Source: Bacteroidales bacterium (GTDB lineage: Bacteria; Bacteroidota; Bacteroidia; Bacteroidales; UBA932). From it: 36,048 nt of DNA. The stretch's first letter is position 1. Every line of letters starts with the position of its first letter. Below are positions 10,275 to 18,846 of this stretch, in pieces. The notes under the pieces were generated by a model. It saw nothing but the letters and a program-made list of their open reading frames with translations, ran no database searches and was not told where the DNA came from. Both the position numbers and the translations under genes were made by a program. The stretch is from NCBI GenBank assembly GCA_017438265.1, contig JAFRVZ010000050.1, forward strand, positions 1 through 36,048, written 5' to 3'.

Positions 10275-12578
10275 CTAGAAATCGAAGCCGATGCCCAGAT
10301 AGACCCCGACGGATTTCGTCAGGCTGGACCAGTGGACATCCGCCCGGATCGGGCCGATGTAGGTATTGTAGGCATATTCGAGAGCGAAACCGAGCGCCTG
10401 TCCGGCCGCGTGGACGTTCAGGTAGTCCCGCAGGTCCGCCGCGTCGCGGAGATACTGGCCGGTCGCCGTGACATAGTGTTTCGAGGCGATCTGCCAGCGC
10501 AGGTCCAGACCGGCGACGGAGAGCAGGCGGTTGCGCCGGAAGGCGCTGTTGACGCCGGCGAAGGCGATCTGCTGGTCGAGCGTGCGCCCGGGCAGCTTGA
10601 CCGAGAGGAAGTTGTCGAGGACGGGAACGTCGTCCGAGATATACCGGGCGGCGAGGCTCGGCAGGACCGTGAAGCGGCCGATGCTGGCAGCGGTCTGGAA
10701 ATCGGCGTTCAGCACATAGAAGCCGCCGCGTTCCTCCCGCAGGTCCGCGAAGAACCACTGGCCACCCAGCGAATAACGGGCGCCGGAGCGCGGGAAATAC
10801 GCGATGTCATAGGAATCCAGGCGCGTCTGGGCGTACAGGCTGGCATAGGCGTGCTTGCGCTTGAAGTCGGCGGGACCGTTCTGGTCGGAGAGCACGGAGG
10901 TGAAGTTGAACTGTTCGATGCGGGCGCCCAGGCGCACGTCGGCCAGGTTCCAGCGGGTCATCGCCAGGTAGGCGTCGCCGCGGATGTGGTTGAAATCCGC
11001 CTGGAATTGCCGGGGGTCCAGGTTGAAATCCACGTTCCGAGTGCGCCTGAGTAGCACTTCCGTGCCGAGGCTGAAGCCGGACTGGGTCCGGTAGGAATAG
11101 TCCGCGTCCAGCGAAGAGCGCAGGCCGAGGCGGCCGGTCAGGTCGAGGTGGTGGCCCGTCAGGCGGTGGGCGTTCAGGCCGAGCATCAGCAGCAGGGACG
11201 CGTTTTCCTCCGTATCGAAGCGGAAGCTGACGCCGGACTGGTGGACGGGGGCGCGGACGCAGTCGAACTGGAGGAGGAAGGGTTCCTTCTCGCCGATGAG
11301 GCTGTAGGTCACGCTTTCGAAGGCGGAGGTGCCTTTCAGGGTATAGACGGCGCGGTCCAGGTCCGCCTTGCTGACCGTATGGCCGAGCTTCAGCAGCTCC
11401 AGCAGGTATCTCCCGTCATCGACGCTGTTCACGCCGCTGAAGCTGATTCCGGAAATCTGGACGGCGTGGTCCGCCGTGTTGACGGAAACGGCGTTCTTCG
11501 GCCGCGGGGCGCGCCCGAGCGCCTGGCGCAGGGCCTGGATCTCCGCGGCGTGTTCCTTCGCGGCCTTGTCGCCGCGCAGGATCAGCGAGTCGATGCTGCG
11601 GGCATCGAAGCTGAGCATGCTGTAGCCGGAAATGTCCGGGCGGATGTACAGGTCGGACTGGGCGACGCCTTCGTTGTAGGAGTCCTCGCCGATCAGGTCC
11701 ATCAGGTGGCTGACAATGTCGAGGAGGCTGTTGATCGGCGCTTCCGAATCGCCGGGAGAGGAGATGTCGACGCCGATGATGATGTCCGCGCCCATCTTGC
11801 GGGCGATCGCAGCGGGGAAATTGTCGATGAGGCCGCCGTCCATCAAGATCATCCCGTCCTTGCGCAGCGGTGCGAAAAGGCCCGGGATCGACATCGTCGA
11901 GCGCAGCGCGTCGATCAGGTTGCCGCAGTGCCAGACCTTCGGCGAGGCGCTGACGGCGTCGGTCGCGACGCAGACGAAGGGAATCGGCAGCCGGAGGAAG
12001 TCGATCTCCCCGCCATAGCCCGGCAGGAGGCTGCTGAAGAGGTTGCGGATGTTCTGGCCCTGGACGATGCCGCCGGGGAGGATGCCGCGGACGCTTTCCT
12101 CGCGGGAGCGGTCCCGGGAGAAGAGGTCGACGTTGTCCGAGCCGAACGACAGGGACACGGGATATTTCAGCTGATAGTCTTTCTGGTGGAGGGTGTTGAA
12201 TTCGCGCGGGTAGCTGTCCGACAGGAGGCTGTCCCAGTCCAGGCCGCGCATGATGGTCTCCAGCTCCTCCCCGCTGTAGCCGCAGGCATAAAGGCCGCCG
12301 ATCAGGCCGCCGACGCTGGTTCCGAGGACCATGTCGATCGGGATCTCGGCCTCGTCGAGGGCCTGGATGACGCGGACGAGCGCCGCCCCTTTTGCGCCGC
12401 CGCCCGAAAGCACCAGCGCGACGACGGGCCGCTGCCGCCGGACCGCATCCATCCGCCGGGAGAAGGCGGCGAAGGCGGCATCGTCCCGGCGTTTGTCGAT
12501 GCCGTAGCTGTAATCCGGCTGCGCCAGGGCGGAAACCCCGGCGAAAAGCAGCATCAACAGTAGCAGAACCCTTTTCAT
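10275..12578 (-). CDS. Patatin-like phospholipase fused to an outer-membrane barrel (type Vd-like)
   Basis: A 767-residue protein with a signal peptide ending SALAQ. The N-terminal patatin domain (~50-350) has the oxyanion loop SGGGAKG, the nucleophile elbow GTSVGG (Ser88) and the catalytic DGG (Asp247), so a Ser-Asp lipase dyad is present. Residues ~375-450 look like a POTRA domain (VQISGISFSGVNSVDDGRYL). The rest alternates short amphipathic strands and ends in aromatic GIGFDF, as in Omp85-family barrels. This is the layout of PlpD/FplA-type Vd proteins, in which the barrel displays the patatin at the surface. The ATG at 12578 overlaps the phosphatase stop as ATGA; it is preferred over 12599 because it opens the signal peptide. 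Confidence 0.88.
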   Translation of the reverse strand: MKRVLLLLMLLFAGVSALAQPDYSYGIDKRRDDAAFAAFSRRMDAVRRQRPVVALVLSGGGAKGAALVRVIQALDEAEIPIDMVLGTSVGGLIGGLYACGYSGEELETIMRGLDWDSLLSDSYPREFNTLHQKDYQLKYPVSLSFGSDNVDLFSRDRSREESVRGILPGGIVQGQNIRNLFSSLLPGYGGEIDFLRLPIPFVCVATDAVSASPKVWHCGNLIDALRSTMSIPGLFAPLRKDGMILMDGGLIDNFPAAIARKMGADIIIGVDISSPGDSEAPINSLLDIVSHLMDLIGEDSYNEGVAQSDLYIRPDISGYSMLSFDARSIDSLILRGDKAAKEHAAEIQALRQALGRAPRPKNAVSVNTADHAVQISGISFSGVNSVDDGRYLLELLKLGHTVSKADLDRAVYTLKGTSAFESVTYSLIGEKEPFLLQFDCVRAPVHQSGVSFRFDTEENASLLLMLGLNAHRLTGHHLDLTGRLGLRSSLDADYSYRTQSGFSLGTEVLLRRTRNVDFNLDPRQFQADFNHIRGDAYLAMTRWNLADVRLGARIEQFNFTSVLSDQNGPADFKRKHAYASLYAQTRLDSYDIAYFPRSGARYSLGGQWFFADLREERGGFYVLNADFQTAASIGRFTVLPSLAARYISDDVPVLDNFLSVKLPGRTLDQQIAFAGVNSAFRRNRLLSVAGLDLRWQIASKHYVTATGQYLRDAADLRDYLNVHAAGQALGFALEYAYNTYIGPIRADVHWSSLTKSVGVYLGIGFDF

Positions 12579-14533
12579 ACCTTTTTGATTCTCAGACACA
12601 GCAGCGTCAGGTCGTCGCTGGCCTCTGCCTCCCCTACGAAGGCAGCCACGGCATCCTTCAGCGCCTCGACCGCCGATTCCGCGTCCGCGAACGGACGCGC
12701 ATCCAGCGTCCCGAAGAGCCGTTCGTTGCCGAACTGCTCGTGCGACAGGTTCTCGGCCTCGTTCAGGCCGTCCGTATAAAGCAGCAGGGAAAGGCCCTCC
12801 AGGGAGTCCATATGCTCCCCGCGGAAGGCGAATCCCGGAATGACGCCGATCATCGTGTTCGGCTCGGAATCCAGGAAGCGGGCCTTCGCCGGACGGTCGG
12901 CGCCGGAGAAGAGCACGGGCGGGTTGTGGCCGCAGTTGCAGAAGTCCATCGCGCCCGTCCGCAGGTCGATGACGCCCAGGAACATCGTGACGAACATCAT
13001 CTGCTCGTTGTCCTCGGAGAGCGTGTCGTTGATCTGTCGGGCGATTTCCGCCGGAGGGAGCGCCTGCTGTGCCACGACGCGGAACAGGTTGCGCGCAACC
13101 GCCATGAAGAGGCTGGCCGGCACGCCCTTTCCGCTGACGTCCCCGATGCAGAAATACAGTTTCTCATCCTGGATGAAGAAGTCATACAGGTCGCCGCCGA
13201 CCTCCTTCGCCGGCGTCATCGACGCATAGAGATCCACGTCGCGGCGCTGCGGGAACGCCGGGAAAATCCGCGGGACCATCCCCATCTGGATGTCGCGGGC
13301 GATGCGGAGCTCGCCTTCGATGCGCTCCTTGTTCGCCGTCGTACGCGTCAGCTCGTCGATATAGTTGACGAGCGAACTCTGCATCTCTGCGAAAGAGCTG
13401 TTCAGCTGGCCGATCTCGTCGTGGCGCGTCAGCGCCGGCAATTCCTCGTCGAAACGGCCGGAGGCGATGGTCTTCGTCTGGCTGACGAGGCGTCCGAGGG
13501 GCGCCAGCTGCCGCTGGATGATGCGCGCGATCACGAGGAACATCAGCAGCAGGCCTAGCAGCAGGTTGAGGAAGACCGAACGGCGCAGGCGGTTGAAGCC
13601 GGCGAACACGTCGCTTTCGGGGCAGACGATGGCGACGCTCCACCCCGTGCTGGGAACCGGCTTGAAGAACACATAGCTGGGCTGGCCGTCCATCACAAGG
13701 GAGCGGTAACCCGCTTCCCCGTCCAGCATCGCATGGCCGAGTTCATCCATTTCGGGCAGGTCCTCCAGGAGCGACCGGGTAAAGATGGTCTCGTAGAAGA
13801 GTTTGGTCGAATCCGGGTGGACCAGGAAGGTCCCGCCGCGGCCGATCATGATGCTGTAGGAATTCGGGTAGGGCTTGACGGCGGATATCGTTTCGGAAAG
13901 CCAGTCCAGGGACAGGTCGAGGGACAGCGAGCCGATGAAATTGCTGCCCGCGTCGGTCAGGGGGACGCAGTAGGAGGCGATCACCTCCGTGGCGTAGATG
14001 GCATTCGGGTTGTAGTCCATGAAGGGCTCGGTCCAGGCGGGCTGCATCATCAGTTTCGGCAGCAGGTACCAGTCCATATAGAAATACTGGTAATCGTCGT
14101 TGCCCTCCTGGGCGGACAGGATCTCGCCGCCGACATTCTCGGTATAGGCGGAGAAATAACGGCCGTATTCCGGATAGAAATCAGGCTCGAAGGAAATCGA
14201 GCAGCCGTTCAGGACAGGATTGTTGCGGACGATGCTGCGGCTGAGCGCGAAGATGTCCTGCGGGGATCCGATCCGCTCGTAGACCTGGTCCTCGGAATTG
14301 TCCGCGGCGATCCGCACGCCGTCCAGGATGCCGTTCACGCGCAGGACAGTGTTGTCCAGGACCTGCGTCGCGTGCTCGATGGCTTCGTCCCGGACGGCGC
14401 CGCGCGACACATAGAAGAGGAAACCCAGCGCAAGGATGAAGATGAGCGCGGCGAAAAGGACAATCCAGAGGCTCAGCCGCGTCGCAAGGGAGCGGCCGGA
14501 CTTTTCACGGAGGAGTTGGAACGGATTTCTCAT
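12575..14533 (-). CDS. RsbU-like PP2C phosphatase with periplasmic sensor and HAMP
   Basis: A 652-residue inner-membrane phosphatase expected to dephosphorylate a STAS-domain anti-sigma-factor antagonist. Segments in order: TM1 ~21-42; a periplasmic region ~45-310 resembling a double Cache sensor (GSLSLDLSLDWL, GTFLVHP, VPSTGWSVAI); TM2 ~318-340; HAMP ~341-393 (PLGRLV ... DEIGQL); a short helix with IARDIQMGMVP, the usual lead-in to SpoIIE-type domains; then PP2C ~425-652. Metal-binding motifs GGDLYDF (Asp448), GDVSGKG (Asp465), YTDGLNEA (Asp588) and SDDLTLL (Asp640/641) are all present. It overlaps both neighbours by ATGA. Its likely substrate is the STAS protein encoded divergently at 16009; that pairing is inferred from context. 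Confidence 0.92.
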   Translation of the reverse strand: MRNPFQLLREKSGRSLATRLSLWIVLFAALIFILALGFLFYVSRGAVRDEAIEHATQVLDNTVLRVNGILDGVRIAADNSEDQVYERIGSPQDIFALSRSIVRNNPVLNGCSISFEPDFYPEYGRYFSAYTENVGGEILSAQEGNDDYQYFYMDWYLLPKLMMQPAWTEPFMDYNPNAIYATEVIASYCVPLTDAGSNFIGSLSLDLSLDWLSETISAVKPYPNSYSIMIGRGGTFLVHPDSTKLFYETIFTRSLLEDLPEMDELGHAMLDGEAGYRSLVMDGQPSYVFFKPVPSTGWSVAIVCPESDVFAGFNRLRRSVFLNLLLGLLLMFLVIARIIQRQLAPLGRLVSQTKTIASGRFDEELPALTRHDEIGQLNSSFAEMQSSLVNYIDELTRTTANKERIEGELRIARDIQMGMVPRIFPAFPQRRDVDLYASMTPAKEVGGDLYDFFIQDEKLYFCIGDVSGKGVPASLFMAVARNLFRVVAQQALPPAEIARQINDTLSEDNEQMMFVTMFLGVIDLRTGAMDFCNCGHNPPVLFSGADRPAKARFLDSEPNTMIGVIPGFAFRGEHMDSLEGLSLLLYTDGLNEAENLSHEQFGNERLFGTLDARPFADAESAVEALKDAVAAFVGEAEASDDLTLLCLRIKKV

Positions 14534-15468
14534 CGGCCGGTCAGTTCATCGTAGGTAATCTCCCGGGAAATCATCCCGTTTTCCAGCATCAGGGCGCAGG
14601 CCAGGGAAAGCATGTCCGGGCGCAGGCGGAACTCCGGTTCGCCGGATTCCCGGTCGCACTGCAGGCGCAGGACTTCGTCCAGCATCAGCCGCTGGATCAC
14701 GCGGTTCGTGCCGACGTGGCTCTCGCGGACCATCTCCATCACGATGTCGAGGGTCTCTTCCGGGTGCTCCCGCGCCCACTCCCAGCCGCGTCGGCTGGCC
14801 CGGGCGAAGCGCTCCGCCCGGTCCGGGTCCTTCAGGTAGGCGGCGCGGGTCATGTAGACGCCGTCCTCCTGGACATTGTAGCCGTGGTCGCTGAAGCGGT
14901 AGACGGCCTCCGGGGGCACGTCGATACCGGCCTGGAGGATCTGGTAGTATTCGTTGTAGCTCATCGCCAGGGTCGCGTCGATGGCGCCGGCGATAAAGAG
15001 GTTGACGTTGTTGCCGATCGGAATCCACTCGTAGCCGAGGTTTTCCCGACGGCTCATCGCGATGGCGATCTGGCCGAAGCCGGAAGCCCAGGTCCCGACC
15101 CGGGCGCCGCGCAGGGTCAACGGGTCGCGGCCCCGGCGCGAGACGATGACCATCCCGTTGTTCATCGAGGTCTGGAGGATGTTGACGAGCGGGATTCCGT
15201 GGTCCAGGATTTCGAGCGCCTGCGCCAGCTGGAGGGTCGTCGCATCGCTCTGGTTCTCCCGCATCCGGTCCAGCGCGGAGCGCGTCGCGGAAGGGTGCTC
15301 GATCCGGACATGGATTCCTTCCTCCTCGTAGAAGCCCATCTTCTGGGCGACGTAGTAGCCGGCGAATTGCGCCTGCGCGGTCCACTGCGGCGTAAAGACG
15401 AAATCCTGCGCCCGGAGGACAGGCGCAGCGGCGGACAGCAGGAGGAAAAGCAGGGGTCGGAATCGCAT
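14530..15468 (-). CDS. NMT1/THI5-like periplasmic substrate-binding protein
   Basis: A 312-residue secreted protein with a signal peptide (MRFRPLLFLLLSAAAPVLRAQ). FTPQWTAQAQFAGYYVAQ and KMGFYEEEGIHVRI are hallmarks of the NMT1/THI5-like family, whose members bind small organic ligands such as pyrimidines, riboflavin precursors or sulfonates. GARVGTWASGFG and later lobe elements fit the same fold. The start at 15468 is the ATG in front of the signal; the longer frame begins with a TTG inside the promoter. No permease or ATPase is encoded with it. It is instead coupled by ATGA to the RsbU-like phosphatase, suggesting that it presents a ligand to that sensor rather than feeding a transporter (inference). 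The ligand is unknown. Confidence 0.83.
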   Translation of the reverse strand: MRFRPLLFLLLSAAAPVLRAQDFVFTPQWTAQAQFAGYYVAQKMGFYEEEGIHVRIEHPSATRSALDRMRENQSDATTLQLAQALEILDHGIPLVNILQTSMNNGMVIVSRRGRDPLTLRGARVGTWASGFGQIAIAMSRRENLGYEWIPIGNNVNLFIAGAIDATLAMSYNEYYQILQAGIDVPPEAVYRFSDHGYNVQEDGVYMTRAAYLKDPDRAERFARASRRGWEWAREHPEETLDIVMEMVRESHVGTNRVIQRLMLDEVLRLQCDRESGEPEFRLRPDMLSLACALMLENGMISREITYDELTGR

Positions 15469-15489
15469 CACGGACGGACTTCTTTTCCG

Positions 15490-15497
15490 CAAATTTA
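15490..15497 (-). promoter_or_regulatory. -7 promoter box for the SBP-phosphatase-patatin-amylase operon
   Basis: The minus strand reads TAAATTTG, an exact TAnnTTTG match, 21 nt before the ATG at 15468. A TTG lies 24 nt upstream of it (15524-15522), farther than the usual 19. Confidence 0.6.
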
Positions 15498-15531
15498 CAT
15501 TTTTTCTTTCTTTATTCCGTACAATTATTAT

Positions 15532-15539
15532 TAACTTCG
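15532..15539 (+). promoter_or_regulatory. -7 promoter box for the RsbW-RsbV-ABC-purine operon
   Basis: TAACTTCG matches TAnnTTTG at all but one position and ends 24 nt before the ATG at 15564. The upstream region is T-rich but has no exact TTTG at N19. The two divergent boxes are 34 bp apart. Confidence 0.5.
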
Positions 15540-15563
15540 CACAAATTGAGACAGTCCCCCGTC

Positions 15564-15989
15564 ATGACCGAACGACACCTGATTTTTCACAACGACATCC
15601 AGCAGATTCCGCAGCTGGCGTGCTTCGTCGAAGCCATTGCGGAGGAAGCCAGCCTGGACCAGTCCCTGGCGATGAGCCTGAACCTCGCGCTGGAAGAAGC
15701 CGTTACCAACGTTATCATGTACGCGTATCCGGCCGGCTCCGACGGACTCGTCAGCATCGAAGCGGTAATCCGCGACGACGCCCTGGAATTCATCCTGAGC
15801 GACAGCGGCATTCCTTTCGACCCGACGGAAGCCCGCGAAGCCGACGTGACCCTCGCCGCGGAAGACCGCCCCATCGGCGGCCTCGGCATCTTCCTTGTAC
15901 GCAACATCATGGACGAGGTGACCTACCGGCGGGAAGACGGGAAGAACATCCTCACGATGCGCAAGCACCTGAAACAGAATAATAATTAA
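15564..15989 (+). CDS. RsbW-like anti-sigma-factor serine kinase (GHKL ATPase)
   Basis: A 141-residue single-domain HATPase_c_2 protein. The N-box is LALEEAVTNVIMYAYP (Glu45, Asn49), the G1 box DSGIPFDP (Asp80, Gly82) and the G2 region IGGLGIFLVRNIMDEV (105-119), so ATP-binding residues are intact. In partner switching such kinases phosphorylate the STAS antagonist and bind a target, classically a sigma factor. The ATG at 15564 is used; a TTG six codons upstream adds nothing conserved. The STAS gene follows after 19 nt. No sigma factor is encoded in this window, so the kinase's target is open. Confidence 0.92.
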   Translation: MTERHLIFHNDIQQIPQLACFVEAIAEEASLDQSLAMSLNLALEEAVTNVIMYAYPAGSDGLVSIEAVIRDDALEFILSDSGIPFDPTEAREADVTLAAEDRPIGGLGIFLVRNIMDEVTYRREDGKNILTMRKHLKQNNN

Positions 15990-16008
15990 ACAAGCACATA
16001 CAGAAAAG

Positions 16009-16317
16009 ATGGAAGTCAAAATTTCGGAACAGGGCGGCACGATGACCGCCGCCTTCGTCGGACGCCTCGACACGCCGGCCTCCCTGGAAGTCTCCCGCGA
16101 TATCCAGCCCCTGCTGGATAACGCCAACAAGACCCTCGTGCTGGACTGCAAGGAACTGAGCTACATCAGCAGCTCCGGCCTCCGCATTTTCCTGACCATC
16201 CGCAAGGCCGCCGCGGCCAAGGGTGGCAAAGTCATCGTCAAGGACATCACCGACGACATCCGCCAGGTCTTTATGATGACCGGTTTCCTGAACCTGTTCG
16301 AAGTCCGCAATGGGTAG
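16009..16317 (+). CDS. RsbV-like STAS-domain anti-anti-sigma protein
   Basis: A 102-residue protein consisting only of a STAS domain. The conserved phosphorylation loop appears as SYISSSGLRIF; by alignment with SpoIIAA/RsbV the acceptor should be in Ser54-Ser56, most likely Ser55. The aspartate usual just before that serine is replaced by Ser/Ile here. It is expected to be phosphorylated by the kinase encoded just upstream and dephosphorylated by the PP2C protein at 12575-14533. Its stop overlaps the next start by 8 nt, tying its translation to the transporter gene. Confidence 0.92.
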   Translation: MEVKISEQGGTMTAAFVGRLDTPASLEVSRDIQPLLDNANKTLVLDCKELSYISSSGLRIFLTIRKAAAAKGGKVIVKDITDDIRQVFMMTGFLNLFEVRNG

Positions 16318-17788
16318 GCGGGCATTCCGGCTCCTCGGATGCCTGCTCCTCCTGCTGCTCGTCGTTTCCTGCGCTTCCGAAAAGCGGCGTGAAATCCGCG
16401 CCTGCAGCGACCTGGAGCACGGCAACGTCGGAGTGCTGACCGGGCGGAGCAACGACAGGGCCGTCCGCGCCCTGTTCCCGGATGCGGAACTCTATTATTT
16501 CGAAGACCTCGTGTCGATGTGCATGTCGCTCCAGAGCGGCCACATCGACGCGTTTGCCTGTATGGAGACGGGCGTAGACGGGCTCCTGGCCCGCAATCCC
16601 GGCTTCCGCGTGCTCGAAGGGGTGCCGGAGATCCTGGATACCGCGGCCGTCGCCTTCCGGGAGGACAACCTCCTGCTGGCGGGCCAGTTCAATGAATTCC
16701 TGCGCGGGATCCTCGCCGACGGGACGATGGACGCAATCCGCGCCAACTGGCTTGCGGCCGATGCCCCGGGCGTCCATTATCACCCCCATGCGAAGGAAGG
16801 CACGCCGCTCTCCGTCGGCATCGAGGCCGGCCAGACCTTCTTCACCGTGATCCGCGAAGGCGAAGGCGCCGGCCTGGAGCCGGAGATGATGCTGCGCTTC
16901 GGCGACTACCTGGGCCGTCCCGTCCGCTTCGTGGAGATGACCAACCCCGGCATGATTCCGGCGCTGTTCTCCGGCAAGGTCGATGCGCTCGTGAGCGCCA
17001 TCGCCCCGACGCGGAGCCGCGCGGGCCGGGTCCTGTTCTCGACGCCGTATGACATCTCCCCCGTCTGCCTCGTCGTCGCCGGCGCCGCCCCGCCCCAGGT
17101 TCGGAAAAGCGCCTGGAGCTCGCTGAAAGAGAATTTCCACGAGTCGCTCATCGCCGACAACCGCTTTGAACTGATTCTGGAAGGCCTGAAGAACACCCTC
17201 CTCATCACCTTCCTTTCCGTCATCTTCGGTTTCCTGCTCGGCTGCGGGCTCTGCTGGATGAAGCGCCGCGGTCCCCGCTGGGCGGAGGCCTTCTCCCACG
17301 GCTACTGCGAGATCGTCGAGGGCATCCCGATCGTGGTGCTCCTCCTCTTCATGTTCTACGTCGTCTTCGCGACGAGTCCCCTGACCGCGATCGTCGTCGC
17401 CGTCATCACCTACTCCCTCCATTTCGCCGCCGGTGCGGCGGAATGCCTGGAACGCAGCATCGAGAGCGTCGACAAGGGGCAGTGGGAGGCTGGCAAAGCG
17501 CTGGGATTCAGCCGCTTCGGAACCTTCCGCTACGTCATAGCCCCGCAGGCGGTCCGCCAGTTCCTTCCCCTCTTCAAGGGCAAGGCCGTCGGCCTCATCG
17601 AAAACACCTCGATCGTCGGCTTCATCGCCATCGAGGACATGACCAAGGTCACGGACATCATCCGCAGCCAGACCTACGACTCGCTCGTACCGCTCGTCGT
17701 GGTCGGCGTCATTTATTTCCTCATCGCCCGGCTGATCAGCGTCGGCCTGGACAAGCTCGGTGACCATTTGAATTTCAAGGTGAAATGA
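16310..17788 (+). CDS. Amino-acid-type ABC transporter: substrate-binding lipoprotein fused to permease
   Basis: A 492-residue fusion. A lipoprotein-like signal ends VVSC (Cys21). Residues ~37-150 look like the second half of an SBP_bac_3 domain (GNVGVLTG ... LQSGHIDAF ... DGTMDAIRANWL) and ~166-258 like its first half (LSVGIEAGQ ... LFSGKVDALVSAIAPTRSRA ... FSTPYDISPV), so the order is swapped relative to the family. Residues ~285-485 form a HisM/GlnP-type permease: segments near 294-316, 337-355, 357-375 and 459-478, and the EAA loop QWEAGKALGFSRFGTFRYVI. It should import polar amino acids or similar compounds with the ATPase encoded next, which overlaps it by ATGA. If the Cys is lipidated, the permease must still insert downstream; the segment may instead act as an uncleaved anchor. 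Confidence 0.88.
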   Translation: MGRRAFRLLGCLLLLLLVVSCASEKRREIRACSDLEHGNVGVLTGRSNDRAVRALFPDAELYYFEDLVSMCMSLQSGHIDAFACMETGVDGLLARNPGFRVLEGVPEILDTAAVAFREDNLLLAGQFNEFLRGILADGTMDAIRANWLAADAPGVHYHPHAKEGTPLSVGIEAGQTFFTVIREGEGAGLEPEMMLRFGDYLGRPVRFVEMTNPGMIPALFSGKVDALVSAIAPTRSRAGRVLFSTPYDISPVCLVVAGAAPPQVRKSAWSSLKENFHESLIADNRFELILEGLKNTLLITFLSVIFGFLLGCGLCWMKRRGPRWAEAFSHGYCEIVEGIPIVVLLLFMFYVVFATSPLTAIVVAVITYSLHFAAGAAECLERSIESVDKGQWEAGKALGFSRFGTFRYVIAPQAVRQFLPLFKGKAVGLIENTSIVGFIAIEDMTKVTDIIRSQTYDSLVPLVVVGVIYFLIARLISVGLDKLGDHLNFKVK

Positions 17789-18834
17789 TCCGCATATCCC
17801 ATCTTTCCAAAGTGTACCCCGGCGGGGTGACCGCCCTGCGGGACATCAGCCTGGAAGTCCGTCCGGGAGAGGTCATTTCCGTCATCGGCCCCTCCGGCTG
17901 CGGCAAGAGCACCCTCGTCCGCTGCATCGAAGGCCTCGAGGCCCCGAGCGCCGGGACCATCGAGACCGGCAGCAGCCGCCTCGGGATGGTCTTCCAGCAG
18001 TTCAACGTCTTCCCCCACCTCAGCGTCCTCGACAACGTGACCCTCGGTCCCGTCAAGCTGCGCGGCATCCCGCGCGAGGAAGCGGAGCAGCGGGGCATGG
18101 AGCTGCTGCGCACGGTCGGCCTCGCCGAGAAGGCCCGCCGGATGCCGGATTCGCTCTCCGGCGGCCAGAAGCAGCGTGTCGGCATCGCCCGCTGCCTGTC
18201 GATGGATCCGGACGTCCTGCTCTTCGACGAGCCGACCTCCGCCCTCGACCAGACGATGAAGACCGAGGTCTTCGGCGTCATCAGCGAGCTCGCCAAGCAG
18301 GGAATGACGATGGTCATCGTGACCCACGAGCTCGAATTCGCCCGCAAGGTCAGCACCCGTGTGCTCTTCATGCACGACGGCGAGATCTGCGAGGAAGGAA
18401 CCCCCGAGCAGGTCTTCGACCACCCCCAGAAGACCCTGACCCAGATCTTCATCCGCAACCGCCGCAGCCTCATCTTCCAGGTCGACAGCCGCGAATACGA
18501 CCTCTACAAGTTCAACGCGGACATCGAGTGGTTCTGCCAGCGCAACCACCTCGGCAAGAAGTACTTTACCCTCGAACTCATTACCGAGGAACTCCTGACC
18601 CACTTCCTCCCCTTCTCCGGCCCCATCCACTTCCGGATCTATCTCAACGACGAGAAGAAACTGGCGATGGAGATCGAGCAGGAATCCTGCTCCTCCCCCA
18701 TCGTGGATTCGCCGGAAGCCGACGAGATCTCCCTGATGATCCTCCAGGGCCTCTGCGCCTCGATCCGGGAGCGCCAGGAAGGCGCCAGCCGTTTCCTCGA
18801 CATCGTCGTCAACGACGTCTATAACCAGGATTAA
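17785..18834 (+). CDS. ABC transporter ATPase with C-terminal degenerate RsbW-like domain
   Basis: A 349-residue ATPase; GlnQ-type proteins usually have about 240. The standard cassette fills ~1-230: Walker A GPSGCGKST (35-43), Q-loop FQQF, signature LSGGQKQR (124-131), Walker B VLLFDEP (144-150) and H-loop His181. Residues ~238-349 are extra. There, FTLELITEELLTHFL aligns with the N-box of the RsbW-like protein encoded at 15564, with the metal-binding Asn replaced by His273. IYLNDEKKLAMEIEQESCSSP aligns with the strand leading into the G1 box, but the Asp-x-Gly is lost. I infer a non-catalytic GHKL-like regulatory domain. The cassette call is firm; the extension assignment rests on visual alignment. 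Confidence 0.9.
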   Translation: MIRISHLSKVYPGGVTALRDISLEVRPGEVISVIGPSGCGKSTLVRCIEGLEAPSAGTIETGSSRLGMVFQQFNVFPHLSVLDNVTLGPVKLRGIPREEAEQRGMELLRTVGLAEKARRMPDSLSGGQKQRVGIARCLSMDPDVLLFDEPTSALDQTMKTEVFGVISELAKQGMTMVIVTHELEFARKVSTRVLFMHDGEICEEGTPEQVFDHPQKTLTQIFIRNRRSLIFQVDSREYDLYKFNADIEWFCQRNHLGKKYFTLELITEELLTHFLPFSGPIHFRIYLNDEKKLAMEIEQESCSSPIVDSPEADEISLMILQGLCASIRERQEGASRFLDIVVNDVYNQD

Positions 18835-18846
18835 AAACCATTATCT

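Follow-up and report, generated by a model that had tools for sequence, protein, structure and literature searches.

Organization of the locus

The window, i.e. the whole analysed stretch of 36,048 bases, is an entire contig (JAFRVZ010000050.1) from the 1.74-Mb, 87.7% complete assembly of a Bacteroidales bacterium (GCA_017438265.1), and it carries the components of a partner switch directly adjoining the genes of an ATP-binding cassette (ABC) transporter. On the minus strand, positions 12575..14533 encode a 652-residue sensor phosphatase that combines a dCache/PDC periplasmic sensor (PF22673, 53 bits), a HAMP domain (PF00672, 47 bits) and a PP2C/SpoIIE domain (PF07228, 164 bits, cut-off 25). 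Overlapping it by 4 nt on the same strand is the gene for an NMT1/THI5-like substrate-binding protein (14530..15492; PF09084, 101 bits); its open reading frame (ORF) begins with TTG at 15492, and by inspection the ATG near 15468 is the likelier start and the protein has an apparent signal peptide. Beyond the divergent intergenic region (15493..15563) that separates the two transcription units, the plus strand encodes an RsbW-like switch kinase of the HATPase_c_2 family (15546..15989; PF13581, 103 bits; N, G1 and G2 motifs intact), for which the first ORF start is 15546 and ATG 15564 is the likelier one. The kinase gene is followed, on the same strand, by those for an RsbV/SpoIIAA-like STAS switch protein (16009..16317; PF01740, 57 bits; TIGR00377, 62.0 bits against a cut-off of 53.45), a fusion of a substrate-binding domain with a polar-amino-acid-type ABC permease (16310..17788; PF00497, 71 bits; PF00528, 73 bits; TIGR01726 above cut-off) and an ATPase (17785-18834). 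The ATPase consists of a GlnQ/HisP-type ABC domain (17785..18450; PF00005, 115 bits) and a C-terminal extension of ~125 residues (18451..18831), hereafter the tail, which is probably RsbW-like with its ATP-site motifs lost, as judged from the profile tests, conservation contrast and motif inspection given below.

All the genes named in a first-pass annotation of this DNA, i.e. phosphatase, kinase, STAS protein, permease fusion and ATPase, are present according to Pfam and NCBIfam matches, and the plus-strand junctions are as tight as it had described, with RsbW and STAS 19 nt apart, STAS and the permease overlapping by 8 nt and the permease and the ATPase by 4 nt. Its count of five genes was too low: there are at least six, the NMT1/THI5-like gene, which is the immediate divergent neighbour of the kinase, having been missed. 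The host assembly contains a single SpoIIE, a single HATPase_c_2 (PF13581, E ≤ 0.001) and a single STAS-profile match, all at this locus. A further permease-ATPase pair of this family is encoded elsewhere in that assembly (G000:C63, L032), and the 14 kb around it contains neither an RsbW nor a STAS match.

Residues E44, E45, N49, D80, G82, G105, G106 and G108 of the kinase (numbered from the ATG) are invariant in 22 of 22 rows of the RsbW alignment, from which L087 was left out on account of a stop codon, and Ser55 of the STAS protein is invariant in all 19 aligned rows. From what is known of the SpoIIAA/SpoIIAB family, we take the former to be the ATP-site motifs and Ser55 to be the acceptor position. 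The locus accordingly encodes the three parts of a partner switch, namely a PP2C/SpoIIE sensor phosphatase, an RsbW-type kinase with intact ATP-site motifs and a STAS protein with a phosphorylatable Ser/Thr, the kinase, phosphatase and acceptor chemistry being presumed from family knowledge.

Conservation of the operon core in relatives

A scan of genome contigs for the permease fusion yielded 86 relatives, of which the best 80 were kept. Those with names are uncultured Bacteroidia, in many cases apparently from ruminant gut, that bear the labels Bacteroidales, Bacteroidia, Bacteroidaceae, Prevotellaceae or Paludibacteraceae; the exceptions are one record labelled Lachnospiraceae and one 'uncultured bacterium'. 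At 77 of the 80 loci, a single ORF combines the ABC core with the extension, as is not the case at L170 (at a contig end), L181 and L184. We define clade 1 as the window together with 13 loci at least 48% identical to it (L106-L117 and L149), representing 14 genomes; L033, L034 and L035 were judged by length to be the same contigs as L113, L107 and L115.

Among the 13 clade-1 relatives, RsbW adjoins the transporter in 10, once as a phosphatase-RsbW fusion (L115), and STAS lies beside the transporter in six. Down to 48% identity, other genomes show the order RsbW, STAS, permease, ATPase again, amid differing outer neighbours. By inspection, these are patatin and purC for the window and for L106; they include a YebC-like gene at L107-L109 and L112-L113 and are different genes at L110 and L114. 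Such recurrence amid different neighbours speaks against chance, and the conserved synteny on which the first-pass annotation had made its proposal depend is indeed found. An adjacent RsbW was not detected in the available sequence of the remaining 67 of the 80 loci; L154 has an RsbW-STAS pair ~7 kb off. At four loci (L041 8891-11602, L042 1668-4475, L039 7642-10407 and L183 7974-10673) we observed single proteins of ~900 residues that unite the permease, the binding domain, the ABC ATPase and a C-terminal extension of the same family.

Co-occurrence of the switch components

The 14 clade-1 genomes were searched for STAS, SpoIIE, RsbW and the NMT1 protein. NMT1 adjoins its phosphatase in 9 of the 14, the pair lying by the operon in the window (divergent) and at L110 (convergent) and on other contigs in the remaining seven; for instance, in the nearest relative, L106, the pair lies on a separate contig (L207) and RsbW has patatin as its immediate neighbour. 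The pair is present in 9 of the 10 genomes in which a free RsbW adjoins the transporter vs. none of the four others (Fisher p = 0.005), the one exception among the 10 being the L114 genome. By eye, the permease-ATPase tree fits one joint gain, one joint loss (L108 and L149) and one NMT1 loss, so that this co-occurrence rests on few independent events. NMT1, phosphatase, RsbW and STAS very probably form one circuit, and its link to the transporter, as had been proposed, is supported both by conserved synteny and by co-occurrence that persists even when the parts are scattered.

The STAS profile has exactly one match in 13 of the 14 clade-1 genomes and none in that of L111; elsewhere in the genus, two or three matches per genome were also seen. 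Two RsbW matches were found in five genomes (L107, L109, L112, L113 and L116), one by the transporter and one in a phosphatase-RsbW fusion, and the sole STAS of these genomes lies in the transporter operon in three cases and near the fusion in two. In trees, the two STAS sequences near a fusion are of the fusion-module type, grouping at 99% with L101, and the kinases of the five fusions form one group (90%). These topologies suggest reciprocal loss of one of two STAS copies, with gaps in the metagenome assemblies as the main caveat; if so, the two STAS copies would look interchangeable.

Linkage of partner switches to unrelated transporters

At L095, in the same genus, NMT1, a phosphatase-RsbW fusion and STAS are followed by a MATE transporter with a C-terminal HATPase_c_2 domain, the last two genes overlapping by 1 nt; the genome (G048) is outside the 23 of 101 genomes with a permease match. 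This MATE architecture was found twice, at L095 6748-8508 and L261 3074-4840 (Pfam, 1.6 × 10−13 and 1.7 × 10−9). At L272, in another family of the same order, an eight-gene run on one strand joins the switch to an unrelated ABC transporter in the order NMT1, phosphatase, RsbW, STAS, double ABC_sub_bind, STAS with 300 further residues, BPD_transp_2 and ABC ATPase. Similarly, at L264, in a further family of the order, NMT1, a dCache histidine kinase, a receiver-PP2C protein, RsbW, ABC_sub_bind and STAS are arranged opposite a divergent arm comprising STAS with 300 further residues, BPD_transp_2 and ABC ATPase. The extended STAS protein, in which a region of ~300 residues has no Pfam match and which precedes the BPD_transp_2 permease and the ABC ATPase, is encoded at L264 3297-4568 and L272 10457-11695. 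In L086 and L088, STAS shares 4 nt with an overlapping gene of the Na+/H+-exchanger type, and the gene after STAS in L102 encodes an OPT transporter. In all, a transporter-type gene directly follows 7 of the 32 STAS ORFs in the scanned loci, a raw count from which we claim no enrichment; the transporter calls come from Pfam for L086, L095, L102, L264 and L272 and from similarity to L086 for L088, and the L264 STAS at 13379, next to which is an NMT1 gene, is not counted among the seven. Beside the NMT1 switch of L097, no transporter was noticed. The linkages to MATE and to the unrelated ABC transporters appear to point the same way, toward post-translational control of transport.

In L086, L088, L089, L102, L210 and L219, phosphatase-RsbW-STAS modules are accompanied by RelA_SpoT-like, HD-like and/or APH-like genes (Pfam for L089); the RelA_SpoT-like neighbours raise the possibility of a (p)ppGpp link.

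The C-terminal tail of the ATPase

When nine tails were compared singly with a plain RsbW profile, L036 scored 11.1 bits (0 of 500 shuffles as high), L183 6.7 bits (2 of 500) and L039 1.8 bits (6 of 500), and the other six did not stand out from shuffles. We then used a stepwise profile that contains RsbW and, as an intermediate, the two MATE tails (L095 and L261), with no ATPase tail included. With this profile, the L036 tail reached 18.2 bits across the whole domain, a score attained by none of 1000 shuffles (best 6.2), and 8 of the 14 clade-1 tails scored above all 500 of their own shuffles, in register. Once L036 was added to the profile, 13 of the 14 exceeded all shuffles, and for L110 one of 500 shuffles did as well. 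Among 13 negative segments (10 from ABC cores and three from other ORFs), 12 scored below zero and one was not aligned. The double Glu of the N box is kept in 14 of 14 tails and the Asn in 1 of 14, and by inspection the G1 and G2 motifs are absent; with its ATP-site motifs lost, the tail should not bind ATP. A class-wide search of 395 genomes with the L036 tail returned two weak matches besides the two in the host genome and thus showed no wide spread. Homology of the tail to RsbW is likely, though not proved, on the strength of these profiles, and we propose that the tail is a docking or regulatory domain.

Tail and ATPase core accumulate differences equally fast in clade 1 (mean ratio 1.02 over 91 pairs), whereas among 15 unlinked sequences divergence of the tail outpaces that of their core by a factor of 2.6 (105 pairs). 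At 65-75% core identity, tail identity is 81% in clade 1 (15 pairs) vs. 42% in unlinked sequences (7 pairs); the corresponding values are 85% (12 pairs) vs. 49% (65 pairs) at 75-85% core identity and 90% (3 pairs) vs. 63% (33 pairs) at 85-95%, the pairs in all these comparisons not being independent. In the 55-65% bin, which contains no unlinked pairs, the clade-1 tail averages 49% (41 pairs). Among the 11 clade-1 loci with RsbW beside the transporter, the ratio is likewise 1.02 (55 pairs).

Sigma factors and comparison with known systems

As the first-pass annotation had noted, the locus encodes no sigma factor, none having been found among the seven locus proteins scanned. Its premise that known partner switches have a sigma factor as output is wrong: HsbA-HsbD (PMC7647112) and, on combined evidence, SiaC-SiaD (PMC7647112, PMC8457831) act on diguanylate cyclases. 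Its interpretation is supported as regards the circuit and its link to the transporter, the failure to find a SigB/SigF-type sigma factor in the 14 genomes and the probable kinase-like domain, and is not supported as regards the sigma premise and the gene count. A region-3 sigma factor (PF04539), RpoD-like, is matched once in 11 of the 14 clade-1 genomes; no PF04539 match was obtained in the other three, the assemblies being incomplete (that of the window, 87.7%). No second region-3 sigma factor was found in any of the 14 genomes. With at most one such protein per genome, a SigB/SigF-type target is unlikely; the primary sigma factor is a possible target because an RpoD-like sigma is present and Chlamydia RsbW binds its primary sigma (PMC4552016).

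Like RsbU/RsbV/RsbW and SpoIIE/SpoIIAA/SpoIIAB of Bacillus, the locus combines in neighbouring genes a PP2C phosphatase, a GHKL-type kinase and a STAS protein with an acceptor serine. Unlike in the Bacillus systems, no SigB/SigF-type sigma factor was found, and the switch genes adjoin those for a transporter and a periplasmic-type binding protein; the kinase, moreover, scores far below the thresholds for the Bacillus RsbW equivalogs (63.8 vs. 145 bits for NF003144 and 62.2 vs. 155.05 bits for TIGR01924). SiaABCD of Pseudomonas aeruginosa resembles the locus in its membrane sensor phosphatase with HAMP and PP2C domains, its kinase, its STAS-like protein and its non-sigma output, which there, however, is the diguanylate cyclase SiaD. 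Membership in the SiaABCD system was rejected, the phosphatase scoring 74.4 bits against the SiaA cut-off of 700, and no diguanylate cyclase was found among the seven proteins scanned at the locus, the search for one not extending to GGDEF genes in the rest of the genome.

Amino-acid ABC importers in which the binding domain is fused to the permease are of the GlnPQ type. The transporter of the window shares with them the presence of SBP_bac_3 and BPD_transp_1 in one protein and the GlnQ-like ATPase, and differs in the permuted halves of the binding domain, the RsbW-like tail of the ATPase and the linked partner switch. The permutation concerns positions 16376-17134, where the segment corresponding to AncQR (4zv1) positions 108-231 comes first and that corresponding to positions 12-102 second; the domain looks like a circularly permuted SBP_bac_3, or like two truncated ones.

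The locus also resembles MlaFEDB in that a STAS protein is encoded together with an ABC ATPase bearing a C-terminal extension. However, the extension of MlaF comprises ~25 residues, compared to ~125, probably RsbW-like, here, and the permease here is of the amino-acid type (BPD_transp_1 and SBP_bac_3). The locus does not belong to the MlaFEDB family proper, as neither an MlaE-type permease nor an MCE match was found among the seven proteins scanned. According to PMC7367683, the STAS protein MlaB binds the ATPase MlaF with Thr52, at the acceptor position, near the centre of the interface, and the mimic Thr52Glu lowers the association; the passages considered name no kinase or phosphatase for MlaB, do not show MlaB phosphorylation and raise phosphoregulation as an open possibility. 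We regard MlaB-MlaF as the closest mechanistic precedent. Among the matches listed in open-licence PubMed Central, there was no description of a partner switch with kinase and phosphatase whose genes accompany those of an ABC importer or a MATE transporter, or which acts on such a protein. The parts come from known families and the class of mechanism is known, and the wiring is a new variant.

A transporter as the proposed output of the switch

The sequence comparisons suggest that the locus is a partner-switching module with a membrane transporter as output, a reading to which, as a whole chain, we give an even chance of being right. The periplasmic NMT1-type protein would present its ligand, or the absence thereof, to the Cache domain of the phosphatase; the PP2C domain would dephosphorylate Ser55 of the STAS protein, which the RsbW kinase would phosphorylate; and dephosphorylated STAS would leave the kinase and dock on the degenerate RsbW-like tail of the ATPase, altering the activity or assembly of the amino-acid-type importer, much as MlaB does with MlaF. 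What the sequences show is the set of parts, the intact motifs of the kinase and the STAS protein, their conserved linkage and the constraint on the tail; the role of a ligand, the binding of STAS to the tail and the direction in which transport changes are inferred. On this scheme, the direct target of the switch may be a membrane pump and not gene expression.

Several observations weigh against this reading. The transporter lacks RsbW and STAS in cis in 3 of the 14 genomes (L108, L117 and L149), all of which carry STAS elsewhere, and at four of the 14 loci the kinase is kept without STAS beside it; the L114 genome keeps RsbW and STAS, its sole SpoIIE match being a 387-residue PP2C protein. 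The tail constraint does not track cis linkage: L108 and L149, without a cis switch, share 89% tail identity, and the tail/core ratio is unchanged when the three switch-less loci are left out, so that the constraint is a property of the clade. The resemblance of the tail to a kinase, suggested in the first-pass annotation and borne out for most members by the stepwise profiles, escapes standard searches, since Pfam and PDB sequence searches gave no match for the tail fold and hhalign comparisons with RsbW were not significant (E of 0.41 and 0.061, the latter colinear over 100 columns). Scored against plain RsbW, the highest of 79 tails (7.3 bits) fell short of the highest of 1580 shuffles (9.6 bits). 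With the RsbW and MATE profile, one to six of 500 shuffles scored at least as high as the tail in 6 of the 14 clade-1 members, three in the case of the window, and in the unlinked sister clade only 8 of 65 tails had at most one of 100 shuffles scoring as high. The presence of the tail in that sister clade implies that it predates the linkage. A transporter is also not a universal output, given that what comes after 25 of the 32 STAS ORFs is another kind of gene, an antisense-looking ORF or nothing. Across the genus, STAS of this type occurs in 19 of the 21 genomes with the transporter vs. 15 of the 40 without it (Fisher p = 9 × 10−5), and in the latter it must have other targets; this association vanishes (5 of 7 vs. 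4 of 7) among the 14 genomes nearest to the window by PurA, a group defined by identity (at least 67%) and not by a tree, and was consequently dropped as support. For the precedent itself, MlaB Thr52Ala is non-functional yet bound, which its authors find hard to reconcile with simple phosphoregulation (PMC7367683).

The phosphatase-RsbW and STAS modules beside RelA_SpoT-, HD- and APH-like genes in several genomes of the genus, the single region-3 sigma factor available as a target in 11 of the 14 genomes and the binding of primary sigma by Chlamydia RsbW (PMC4552016) would also be compatible with a switch that acts elsewhere, RsbW or STAS binding another protein, such as the primary sigma factor or a (p)ppGpp-type enzyme, and the transporter being co-transcribed or part of the regulon. 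The apparently reciprocal loss of STAS from the two modules, which makes it shared rather than dedicated, fits this view too. We nevertheless consider action elsewhere unlikely, as it leaves unexplained the constrained RsbW-like tail of the clade-1 ATPase, the RsbW-like tail of the MATE transporter and the ABC runs with a STAS-domain protein. The same anatomy could be read in the reverse direction, which the first-pass annotation had offered as its alternative, with the transporter as the sensor: flux would change the RsbW-like tail, which, perhaps as a STAS decoy, would sequester or release STAS or RsbW, and the switch would exert its effect elsewhere. The five genomes with two kinases and one STAS, suggestive of several converging inputs, agree with such a role, but a dedicated input seems to be present already in the binding protein and the dCache phosphatase, and the MlaB/MlaF precedent (PMC7367683) runs in the output direction; a sensory transporter thus seems quite improbable.

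An operon of convenience, with shared expression as the sole link between switch and transporter and with a tail that serves dimerisation or substrate inhibition and is unrelated to RsbW, would account for the weak single-profile scores of the tail, whose fold is without structural proof, and for the persistence of the transporter without an adjoining switch in L108, L117 and L149. It is very unlikely in view of the co-occurrence of the parts even when scattered (9 of 10 vs. 0 of 4), the far stronger conservation of the tail in clade 1 than in the unlinked clade and the independent linkages to unrelated transporters.

Beyond the window, the transporter-output reading can be extended, tentatively and as a joint proposal that we hold to be possible but doubtful, to STAS/RsbW switches as a general means of reversible post-translational control of Bacteroidales membrane transport. 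Unrelated transporters would be recruited either via a worn-down RsbW that serves as a STAS dock (the ABC ATPase tail and the MATE tail) or via a STAS-domain subunit (the ABC_sub_bind/BPD_transp_2 systems); an NMT1-type binding protein and a Cache phosphatase would supply the extracellular signal; and each cell of the window's lineage would have a single STAS that integrates up to two phosphatase-kinase inputs. The MlaFB structure paper leaves open whether the STAS-ABC contact is phosphoregulated (PMC7367683). Since one small gene set here includes STAS, a putative kinase and phosphatase, what is likely an extracellular sensor and an ABC ATPase whose tail is probably kinase-like, that question becomes directly testable with purified parts. 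If the transporter is indeed the output, partner switching would serve to gate transport as well as transcription or the synthesis of second messengers, and a degenerate kinase fold would be a docking tag that can be transferred from one transporter to another.

Purine biosynthesis genes

In the window, purC begins 12 nt past the ATPase gene (gap 18835-18846), the distance in L106 being 10 nt, and purC-purB may share a transcript with the transporter in the lineage of the window. PurA (adenylosuccinate synthetase), tried as a marker for the genus, failed in this role, with a match (E ≤ 1 × 10−50) in only 36 of the 61 genus genomes (G000-G060). Among the 25 high-quality genomes, 18 have a match, and purine auxotrophy is possible in part of the genus.

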